A stretch of DNA of 64,000 bases from an uncultured Pseudodesulfovibrio sp. (GTDB lineage: Bacteria > Desulfobacterota > Desulfovibrionia > Desulfovibrionales > Desulfovibrionaceae): assembly GCF_963675635.1 (NCBI RefSeq), contig NZ_OY776488.1, positions 347,740 to 411,739 on the forward strand, read 5' to 3'. Both the position numbers and the translations under genes were made by a program. Positions 50,224 through 54,586 of this stretch are shown here, piece after piece. Every line of letters begins with the position of its first letter. The first letter of the stretch is position 1. The notes beneath the pieces were generated by a model. The model saw only the letters and a program-made list of their open reading frames with translations. It made no database searches and was not told the origin of the DNA.

Positions 50224-51033
50224 ATGAGCAATGAATTCCACATAGTGGTCTGCGGTTCCATAGTACCGGACCCGCTCCAGACGCTCGCACCTCAGGTCGG
50301 TCCCAATGGACCTGTCCTGCAAAATGAAATGATGCTTCCTGCCGTACTCGACCCATGGGCCGGGCATGCGCTGTATGAAGCCGCCAATCTGGCTGCTAAA
50401 AATCCCGGAAGTCAGGTCTGGCTTGTGAGTCTCGGTCCCAAAGCCAAGCTCCAGCAGGTTATGATGTCCGTATCTCAGAAAGCTCCCTTCCAGTTGGTCG
50501 TTGCCGATGGCTCCGCCTCCGGTTTCGTGGATAGCTTCGAGACAGCCAAGGTTCTGGCTGACACCATTGACGGTATCGCTGGTTTGGATAAATCAAAGAT
50601 GCTGCTGTTTGGCGGCTGGCAGTCTGCATCTCGCGGCTCCGGTGCCGTTATGCAGATGGTTGGTGAACTGCTTGGCGTTACCGAACAGTTCCAGGGTGTT
50701 GACAAACTCACCGTTGGCGATGACGGTTCCCTTGAGGTGCTGGAACGCGTTGAAGGCGGTGCGTATCAGAAATCCGTAGTGGACGGTGCTCCTGCCGTCA
50801 TGGGTTGGGCCACTGGTGAACTGCCTGAGCCTCCCAACAATCCCCAGATTGGTATGCAGAACATGCAGAAGAACATGCCTGCTCTGCAACAGGCCAAGCC
50901 TGCTGATCTGTCCGGCACCAGTCTGAGCTTTGCCTCTGTTGAAGTGCCGCAGCAGCGTCGTGAGACCCGTGTGGTCAAGGACGCTTCCGTTGAAGAAATG
51001 GCGAAAGAAATCGTCGAATGGATTAAGGGTTAG
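50224..51033 (+). CDS. Electron transfer flavoprotein beta subunit
   Basis: A 269-residue EtfB-type protein. The N-terminal Rossmann-like start VVCGSIVPDP corresponds to VKQVPD of the family, and the DPWAGHALYEAANLA segment to the DPxxxxALEEA region. The usual AMP-binding motif GxQAxDGDTGQVGP is replaced by GGWQSASRGSGAVMQMV, so nucleotide binding may differ. AAGGAG precedes the ATG. It pairs with etfA 9 nt downstream. Confidence 0.87.
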   Translation: MSNEFHIVVCGSIVPDPLQTLAPQVGPNGPVLQNEMMLPAVLDPWAGHALYEAANLAAKNPGSQVWLVSLGPKAKLQQVMMSVSQKAPFQLVVADGSASGFVDSFETAKVLADTIDGIAGLDKSKMLLFGGWQSASRGSGAVMQMVGELLGVTEQFQGVDKLTVGDDGSLEVLERVEGGAYQKSVVDGAPAVMGWATGELPEPPNNPQIGMQNMQKNMPALQQAKPADLSGTSLSFASVEVPQQRRETRVVKDASVEEMAKEIVEWIKG

Positions 51034-51042
51034 GGGGTTGAT

Positions 51043-52053
51043 ATGACAGTATTATATCTTGCACACACAGAATGTGACAACACCCTGCACAAGTCTGCCC
51101 TTGAAGCCCTGACCGCTGCCAAGACATTGGCGGAAGGCATGGGAGCCGAGTTGGCTGTAGGTATCATTGGTGCGGATATTTCCGCTGCCGCTGATTCCGT
51201 GGCTGGTTGCGGTGCAAAGTTTTACGGCGTAGCCGGCCCCGAATTTGCGGATGCCCGTTATTCTTCCGACCTGACTGCCGCCGAAGCCATTGCCAAGGCG
51301 TGCGGTGCTGAGATTGTGATCGCTCCGGCTACTTCCCGTTTCAGCCGCGCTCTGCCCGGTCTGGCTATCCGTCTGGATGGTCGCGTTGATACGCACCTGT
51401 CCGGTCTGGAATCCGTTGACGGCAAGCCTGTCGCCAAGCGGTGGTTCTACCGCCAGCGCATGGAAGGCACGTTGACGCGTGACGAACGTCCCTGGATTCT
51501 GACTCTGGACTCCGGTTGTGCCGAAGCCTTTGTCGGTGCCGGTTCCGCTGATGTGGAAGCCGTATCCGCAGATGTGTCCGGCGTACGTACTCGGAATGCC
51601 GGCATGGAATGCGTGTCCGAAGACGAGCAAACCATTCGCCCGGATGCTGCAATGCTGCTCGTGGCCGGTGCCGGTTGGACCAAGAAGCAGGCTGACGGCG
51701 CGACCCATGTGGATGTAGCCGAAGAGACCATCATGCGCTTCCTGACCACTACCAAGTGTTCGCTCGGCTCCTCCAAGTCTTTGGTGGATATCTCGGGCGA
51801 GGGTGGTGCAGTTATTTCCTTCCTGACACATATGCATCAGGTCGGTCAGACCGGCTCCACACCGCGTCATGCCAAGGGGTTGTCGACGTGCTGTCATGGT
51901 GAAGAACCGCATGTTGTCGGCTGGCGTTTCGTCAAGGAACGTCGCGCTATCAATACTGATGGCAGTTGTGGATGGGCACAGGGCAAATGCGATGTCCTGT
52001 ACGTTGGCGACGCCTTTGAGATCATGAAGAAGGTCAACGAGCTGCTTGGTTAG
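51043..52053 (+). CDS. Electron transfer flavoprotein alpha subunit
   Basis: A 336-residue EtfA-type protein with the FAD-site QVGQTG motif. The following ISGAIQH segment is replaced by LSTCCHGEEPHVVGW, and the tail INTDGSCGWAQGKCDVLYVGD keeps the INxD and VGD features. It therefore binds FAD, but in a diverged pocket. It ends the four-gene electron-transfer block and is followed by a terminator. Confidence 0.87.
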   Translation: MTVLYLAHTECDNTLHKSALEALTAAKTLAEGMGAELAVGIIGADISAAADSVAGCGAKFYGVAGPEFADARYSSDLTAAEAIAKACGAEIVIAPATSRFSRALPGLAIRLDGRVDTHLSGLESVDGKPVAKRWFYRQRMEGTLTRDERPWILTLDSGCAEAFVGAGSADVEAVSADVSGVRTRNAGMECVSEDEQTIRPDAAMLLVAGAGWTKKQADGATHVDVAEETIMRFLTTTKCSLGSSKSLVDISGEGGAVISFLTHMHQVGQTGSTPRHAKGLSTCCHGEEPHVVGWRFVKERRAINTDGSCGWAQGKCDVLYVGDAFEIMKKVNELLG

Positions 52054-53089: not shown

Positions 53090-53377
53090 TTAACAACAGC
53101 CGGATTTGATCTTTCTGCCGGTCAATTCATGAAGCCATGTGGTGATAATGAGTGAAGCGCATCCAACGCCCGGTGTGACAGTGACAGCTTCCACCGGACA
53201 GTTCTGCGCGCAGGCTCCGCATTCCATGCAGCCGTCGAAATCGAGGATGACCGCTTTTCTGTCGTGAACGGTGAGGACGCGATGGGGACAGACATTCGTG
53301 CACATGCCGCACCCGATGCAGGCGTCATTATCAATTGTGAGCGTCGATACACCGTTAATATAACGAAAATCTTTCAT
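53090..53377 (-). CDS. hgcB: Mercury-methylation ferredoxin HgcB
   Basis: A 95-residue ferredoxin that reduces the corrinoid of HgcA. It has two complete clusters, C20-x2-C23-x2-C26-x3-C30-P and C50-x2-C53-x2-C56-x3-C60-P, an extra C73 and the terminal pair C94-C95. C73 and C94/C95 match in position the residues studied in Pseudodesulfovibrio mercurii ND132 HgcB. SD AAGGGA. It starts 10 nt after the hgcA stop, so the two are co-transcribed. Confidence 0.95.
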   Translation of the reverse strand: MKDFRYINGVSTLTIDNDACIGCGMCTNVCPHRVLTVHDRKAVILDFDGCMECGACAQNCPVEAVTVTPGVGCASLIITTWLHELTGRKIKSGCC

Positions 53378-53387
53378 GGCGAATCCC

Positions 53388-54560
53388 TTATGATAAGAAT
53401 GGAGAAATCAGCCACATGGTAATACCCGCCAGTGCCATGCCTGCCTGTATGGGAATGCCCCGTCGCATCTCCGCTTCAACCCCCGAGGGTGATGTGAAAG
53501 GGGTTGAGCCGGTGAAGTTCATTGCCAGATAGGCCGATACAGTCGTGGTCCATACGACAAGCGCCGTGAGGGACAGCCAGTGTAATGATCCGGAAAAGAT
53601 CAGTGTGCAGACCAAGCCGCCAGCCAGTCCTGCGAGAGCTCCCTTGGGCCAAAACTGCCTCCACGGGAGTTGATTCAGAAAGAGCGGAACGATGAAACAG
53701 CCGGTCAGGATGCCGAACAGCGTTGCCGTAGCGGCTGCCACTCCTCGGGTCCACACCGCAGACAGAGAAAAAATATTCGGGCCGAATCCAGACAGGATAA
53801 AACCGGCCAGAAGGATGATCACTAGCGGTTTGCCCAAAAGGAAAATTTCCACGGGTATGAGTTCCGCCCGTTCCTTGAGAGAAAACGTGACCGTGCGCAT
53901 CGTGTCGTCAGCCTTGTTCCCCGCTTCAATGAAACGCGGGAGATCCTTTGCGTAGACCGGACCGTAACTTACCGAAAAACCGCAGCCCTTTTTGACCTTG
54001 TGCGCGGCAACCCCGGTGGCGCCGAGTTGAGGGAGAATCAATTCCCTGTGAGCAACTATCTCCGGCAGTCGGGCAGAGACGACGCTGCATATGATTTCTT
54101 CGGTGGAGAAGAGCCCTTTTCCTGCGGCGCACCAGACGTTGATGCCGCGAGTGTCCGCCACGAGAATCCACGCGTCGAGGTTGTCCAGTTCCTTTCGGAG
54201 CGCGTCAAAGGAGAGTTTGTAGTTGGCTGTGACCAATACAGGGGAGTCGGCAGTGGGGGTGCCGACGCAATAGAGGCCGGGTACGACCCGGTAGTTGCTT
54301 CTGATGGTGCCGGTCCGGGCACCGATGGTCCCGAGATGGTCTCTTGCCGACAGGGTTGTTCGTATTCGTGGAACATCGCCTGCCGGAGTTTTCACGAAAC
54401 CGTCCACATAGGGTTCCATGGCATAGCCGGGTTTTTCGAAGACCCCTGCACGGGGGTCGGGCTTGGGTCCTCAACAGGGCTGATCGCTGTCCGTCTGGGG
54501 AGGACATTCGGGCGCCATCATGCCGAGAGGTTCAAGCTTGAGTGAATCATTGGGGGACAT
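53388..54560 (-). CDS. hgcA: Mercury-methylation corrinoid protein HgcA, probable selenocysteine at residue 30
   Basis: HgcA carries a methyl group on a corrinoid and transfers it to Hg(II). The cap-helix motif NVWCAAGK is present with its Cys, and about five C-terminal membrane helices follow the soluble corrinoid domain. The uninterrupted ORF starts at ATG 54419 (343 residues), but that ATG has no ribosome-binding site and no alternative start exists. The frame runs on upstream through one TGA (54471-54473) to ATG 54560, with AAGGAG 11 nt before it, giving 390 residues. The TGA is in a Cys-TGA-Gly-Pro context, and a loop-G hairpin follows it. I read it as selenocysteine. Counted from the long start, the cap-helix Cys is residue 144 (97 from the short start). 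Confidence 0.9.
54441..54458 (-). promoter_or_regulatory. SECIS-like hairpin after the hgcA TGA
   Basis: In the mRNA, GACCCC pairs with GGGGUC around the loop CGUGCA. The loop guanine at position 2 is 20 nt after the UGA, within the 16-37 nt range of the bacterial SECIS consensus, which asks for a G among the first two loop bases. Confidence 0.55.
54471..54473 (-). other. In-frame TGA codon in hgcA (probable Sec)
   Basis: Reading the minus strand: CAG CCC TGT TGA GGA CCC AAG. The frame is identical on both sides, so no frameshift is involved. From memory, many HgcA proteins have Cys-Cys-Gly-Pro near the N-terminus, which this would match as Cys-Sec-Gly-Pro. Confidence 0.6.
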
Positions 54561-54571
54561 GGTTGTAATCT

Positions 54572-54586
54572 CTCCTTCTTCAGGAG
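54572..54586 (-). promoter_or_regulatory. Hairpin covering the hgcA Shine-Dalgarno
   Basis: CTCCT and AGGAG pair around GAAGA, and the 3' arm is the SD of the long hgcA start. It could reduce translation of hgcA. Only 5 bp, so tentative. Confidence 0.4.

Follow-up and report, generated by a model that had tools for sequence, protein, structure and literature searches.

The window, which is the whole stretch of 64,000 nucleotides analysed here (positions 347,740 to 411,739 of contig NZ_OY776488.1, from an uncultured Pseudodesulfovibrio sp.), carries the gene pair hgcAB on its minus strand. The protein encoded at 53388..54560 was identified as HgcA by its match to the NCBIfam family NF040863 (432.5 bits, cut-off 275; profile positions 1–324 of 325). 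It contains the cap-helix motif NVWCAAGK at residues 141–148, with the corrinoid-ligating Cys144 (codon at 54129..54131, minus strand) as the equivalent of Cys93 in Pseudodesulfovibrio mercurii ND132, whose role is described in the parts of PMC7305189 available to us. The adjoining hgcB (53090..53377, minus strand; NF040864, 124.5 bits, cut-off 99) is intact and codes for a dicluster ferredoxin with an ordinary Cys at the GVGC site and a Cys-Cys pair at the C-terminus. Directly 3' of hgcB, and on the same strand, lies a response-regulator ORF (PF00072, 52557–53096). Two adjoining ORFs at 50224–52053, on the plus strand and thus opposite to the nearby hgcAB, presumably encode proteins resembling the subunits of an electron transfer flavoprotein.

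The hgcA frame runs on the minus strand from an ATG at 54560–54558 to a stop at 53390–53388 and comprises 390 residues, with a single TGA as residue 30. This codon (54471..54473, minus strand) is preceded by TGT (Cys29) and followed by GGA CCC (Gly-Pro), so that the predicted reading is Cys29-Sec30-Gly-Pro; the coordinates and the sequence context given in the preliminary description are both confirmed. A conventional ORF search instead places the start at ATG 54419, leaving 343 codons. The same description had held that only the upstream ATG is well placed for initiation, and this was borne out: an AAGGAG motif (54572..54577, minus strand) lies 11 nt 5' of ATG 54560, and pairing of the anti-Shine-Dalgarno tail with the 20 nt 5' of the start amounts to -8.8 kcal/mol for ATG 54560, against -1.7 for ATG 54419 and -3.3 for GTG 54407. 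Were the TGA a true stop, the locus would code for a 29-codon leader followed by an HgcA translated from one of these two internal starts, both of which have weak ribosome-binding sites. The codons 5' of 54419, for which a comparison with homologues had been suggested, also speak against a true stop, as the residues they encode can be aligned with HgcA N-termini that are open, and carry Cys, in other species.

The TGA column was read in two sets of loci. Sample 1 consists of the best 80 of at least 575 confirmed loci from a scan of named genomes, while the genus search covered 36 genomes including the window's own, of which 22 had a match and 21 were over the cut-off, the 22nd having fragments only. 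The resulting 101 rows include two duplicates (L002 = L100 and L003 = L113, identical at 960/960 bases each), which leaves 99 non-duplicate loci. These have TGA in 39 cases, Cys in 52 (35 TGC and 17 TGT), another residue in 6 and a gap in 2, the column being placed with less certainty where the tails are most diverged and rich in Cys. The column thus holds TGA in relatives and Cys in a good number of other homologues, the point that the preliminary description had proposed to check, and an in-frame UGA that aligns with the Cys of homologues and is conserved as UGA in relatives is the pattern of a selenoprotein gene. From 15 columns upstream through the last aligned column, the 101 rows (two duplicates) contain a TGA 41 times in this column and only twice elsewhere, a concentration beyond what chance would give. 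Within the genus Pseudodesulfovibrio, TGA is found in 20 of the 20 readable genes among 21 (L118, truncated at the end of its locus, was left out), 19 of them reading CUGP and one (L119) CUDP. In alignment A1, made up of 44 rows picked for having Cys or Sec at the TGA column, the Cys preceding this column is conserved in at least 90% of the rows. The base 3' of the column codon is G in 39/39 TGA loci, and also in 40/52 Cys loci. Two side observations concern TGA or TAG codons in other contexts: L011, which has a Cys-type HgcA, carries an in-frame TGA in the corrinoid domain (GKPUNDSP) that could be a sequencing error or a second Sec, and the genus genome G023 (L120, L121) contains HgcA fragments only, one with an internal TAG, perhaps from a decaying hgcA.

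Beyond the genus, 395 genomes were drawn evenly from the phylum, 114 of which have an HgcA over the cut-off; 110 loci other than the window's own were read, five partial matches over the cut-off being left aside. By a position rule, 45 of the 110 have a TGA in the tail, and 42 after removal of three (L182, L183 and L229) which, judging by their context, are probable ordinary stops. A Cys stands directly 5' of the TGA in 33 of the 42, and the context varies (CUGP, CUPP, TUCP, GUSP). One genome (G320) has two hgcA copies (L181 and L193), one with a tail TGA and the other without. On an HgcA tree of 205 loci, 198 of which were scored (81 Sec, 117 not), the distribution of Sec and not-Sec requires 13 changes. 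Seen in isolation, a gene intact but for a lone TGA would resemble a case of sequencing error or of decay. However, the same TGA occurs in 39/99 loci from many assemblies, so that the relatives already refute this explanation, and neither the 13 changes among the 198 scored genes nor the intact state of the hgcA frame and of hgcB agrees with it; we regard its probability as negligible.

In bacteria, a SECIS element is a hairpin directly 3' of the UGA whose loop begins with a G. A candidate for the apical part of such an element, as claimed in the preliminary description, is the 18-nt hairpin GACCCC-CGTGCA-GGGGTC (54441..54458, minus strand), which occupies nt 13–30 after the TGA and has its first loop G as the 20th nt. 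Read in this fixed register, all six pairs can form in 21/39 TGA loci and in 0/52 Cys loci. Summed over the 39 TGA loci, 199 of 234 pairs are present, against a mean of 140.7 (sd 5.2, maximum 157, 1000 draws) under a synonymous-codon null; the 20 genus loci contribute 119/120 pairs (null 82.4) and the other 19 loci 80/114 (null 58.4). Since related sequences are not independent, these statistics overstate the number of events. The hairpin is kept despite amino-acid changes on both arms, with L114 reading PVPRAGD in place of PDPRAGV, and L103 PAPRAGG. With the register left free, the longest stem of the TGA loci averages 5.7 pairs, against 3.9 for synonymously redrawn codons, and exceeds that of the Cys loci (p 6.5e-11), with exceptions on both sides: 13/52 Cys loci have a stem of at least 5 pairs (two of them 7), and 2/39 TGA loci have only 2 pairs.

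The claim of a SECIS hairpin therefore holds as regards the hairpin itself, its loop G and its conservation beyond coding constraint, and fares less well in the folding of the window's own RNA. When the 48 nt from the TGA are folded alone, another, stronger fold is obtained, in which the UGA region pairs with the 3' arm of the hairpin and the pair probability of the hairpin is about 0; started 9 nt after the TGA, folding yields the hairpin as the best structure. Treated as a conserved element, the competing fold has 165/234 pairs against a null of 131.0, yet all six of its pairs are present in only 2/39 loci. Folding without constraints distinguishes TGA loci from Cys loci to a modest degree only (mean z -0.59 versus 0.15; Mann-Whitney p 1e-4, mononucleotide shuffles), and the fixed-register and synonymous-codon tests are the stronger evidence. 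An Rfam search of the region gave three matches, all under their gathering scores and none to a SECIS family. That a fixed-register hairpin accompanies the TGA codon is a further point against a true stop.

The selenocysteine genes which it had been proposed to look for are all present in the genome, searched as one contig of 3,519,027 bases: selA (609 bits), selB (383 bits) and a tRNA-Sec with a TCA anticodon (81.8 bits). Three formate dehydrogenase genes of the same genome each contain a single in-frame TGA, and the 48 nt from these three TGAs fold alike, with a hairpin. All 36 genus genomes have selA. Among the hgcA genomes tested, it is found in 42/42 of the Sec type and in 35/38 of the others, the three without it being 62–81% complete; selA is thus nearly universal in this set, and its presence does not discriminate between the two types.

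Altogether, the gene in the window very probably encodes HgcA, the mercury-methylating corrinoid methyltransferase, as a selenoprotein with Sec beside Cys29. The frame, the start, the conservation of the column and of the hairpin and the Sec machinery, all of them features of the sequence, support this assignment, and from them we infer that Sec is actually inserted at the UGA. Translation would begin at ATG 54560; at the UGA of codon 30, the hairpin just 3' of it would recruit the SelB-tRNA-Sec complex and Sec would be inserted next to Cys29, after which translation would proceed through the corrinoid and membrane domains. Selenolates bind Hg(II) strongly. The vicinal Cys-Sec pair of the N-terminal tail (Cys-Cys elsewhere) could accordingly be imagined as a high-affinity Hg(II) ligand, which would take up mercury or hold it in place for the corrinoid and for the cysteines of HgcB, although binding and hand-on of Hg(II) by this pair is speculative. 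HgcAB is the maker of methylmercury in nature, and if a model methylator genus has a selenoprotein as its native HgcA, the supply of selenium could affect mercury methylation. The function of the N-terminal Cys-Sec (or Cys-Cys) pair becomes a directly testable question.

The partner protein shows a related variation. Of the 205 tree loci, 32 lack an HgcB that could be scored; among the other 173, the GVGC/U site of HgcB has a TGA in 18, all of them from sample 1 with its best 80 of at least 575 loci: L024, L046, L049, L050, L051, L052, L055, L059, L061, L062, L064, L069, L071, L073, L076, L077, L080 and L081. The HgcA proteins of these 18 loci have no Sec at the tail column, and several have a degenerate Cys pair. 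For the 166 loci scored for both proteins, Sec is predicted in HgcA only for 72, in HgcB only for 18, in neither for 76 and in both for none (0/166), which is suggestive of Sec occurring in one or the other and never in both; this exclusivity is weak because Sec-HgcB corresponds to one change on the tree.

The preliminary description knew of no account of HgcA as a selenoprotein, which proved not to be the case. A 2026 review (PMC13188914), in the part available to us, lists HgcA as a predicted selenoprotein in a table (NF040863, motif CU; refs 61 and 63), together with HgcB (NF040864, motif GVGU; ref. 63), reference 63 being Haft & Gwadz 2023 (J Bacteriol 205:e0025922). The accessible portion of PMC11588087 also cites the latter for HgcA as a predicted selenoprotein. 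Reference 61 is, according to the same part of the review, an ocean-sampling paper from 2008 (PMC2398784), in the main text of which the terms acetyl-CoA, CO dehydrogenase, corrinoid and gamma subunit were not found; its supplement may hold an earlier mention. No further literature linking HgcA or mercury methylation with selenium appeared, by title and abstract, among the matches listed, most subscription journals being outside the scope, and PMC12013277 mentions methylmercury only in its reference list. The idea is therefore in print, and the gene described here is a well-supported further example. What this analysis adds is the genus-wide TGA pattern, the tail TGAs in 42/110 phylum loci and the position of the annotated start of ND132 relative to the Sec column.

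In the excerpts of PMC5038027 available to us, a GTG regarded as the putative start of ND132 hgcA is numbered position 1, and the gene's primers are located by this numbering. With the primers placed on relatives, position 1 falls at the Val52 column, which in the eight readable genus loci listed lies 66 nt from the first base of the TGA, on its 3' side; in the window this is the GTG at 54405..54407 (minus strand), 22 codons past the Sec codon. The residue numbering agrees, as Cys144 minus 51 gives 93, the number of the conserved Cys in ND132. No locus of sample 1 matches both published ND132 primers exactly, and the Sec codon of ND132 is for this reason deduced from the 20/20 genus members. 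With its GTG 22 codons past the Sec column, ND132 constructs may be devoid of the Cys-Sec tail, if their start follows the annotation. As far as the consulted sections go, PMC7305189 reports the expression in E. coli of 'full-length' ND132 HgcA, together with a model that omits the first nine residues, and PMC11588087 reports ND132 HgcAB made in E. coli that yields methylmercury in the lysate. Should the annotated GTG be the start of this HgcA, basic catalysis does not depend on the tail. Both the annotation and the active lysate would fit a TGA that is a true stop, which we nevertheless hold to be highly improbable in light of the aligned upstream residues, the weak internal ribosome-binding sites and the hairpin. 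The lysate result also bears on a scheme in which both forms are made, by Sec read-through when selenium is at hand and otherwise as a short, possibly functional HgcA (PMC11588087, in the part seen) from an internal start, the UGA acting as a selenium-sensitive switch. An in-frame GTG at the Val52 column in 9/15 rows listed (one duplicate) favours such a scheme, but the codon is not conserved (GTT in L003/L113, GTC in L119) and the window has no good ribosome-binding site at the GTG, which makes a switch unlikely, if less so than a true stop.

Returning to the selenoprotein reading, we give about even chances to a wider form of it, in which throughout the genus, ND132 included, native HgcA has the Cys-Sec pair and begins some 51 codons upstream of where it is annotated. 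The ND132 protein on which numbering, structural models and heterologous assays are based would then be without the tail, whose role with mercury would be unexamined with that protein, and Sec would be placed in HgcA or in HgcB, not both, as if serving one shared function. If so, the reference protein has been annotated too short. Compared with known systems, the HgcA of the window belongs to the same family (NF040863) and has the same 'CU' motif as the selenoprotein HgcA predicted by Haft & Gwadz 2023, as cited in the sources above, and no difference between the two was found. The predicted selenoprotein HgcB (GVGU) resembles it in placing Sec in a protein of the same reaction, whereas the window's own HgcB has Cys (GVGC). 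With ND132, the window shares the cap-helix Cys (Cys144, corresponding to Cys93) and the HgcB residues Cys73, Cys94 and Cys95; according to the passages of PMC7305189 at hand, Cys73 and at least one Cys of the C-terminal pair are required for full activity in ND132, and this pair is likened to the C-terminal Cys pair of mercuric reductase, which acquires Hg(II). Unlike the HgcA of the window, that of ND132 as numbered has no Cys-Sec tail, a comparison made by the annotated start and the primers.
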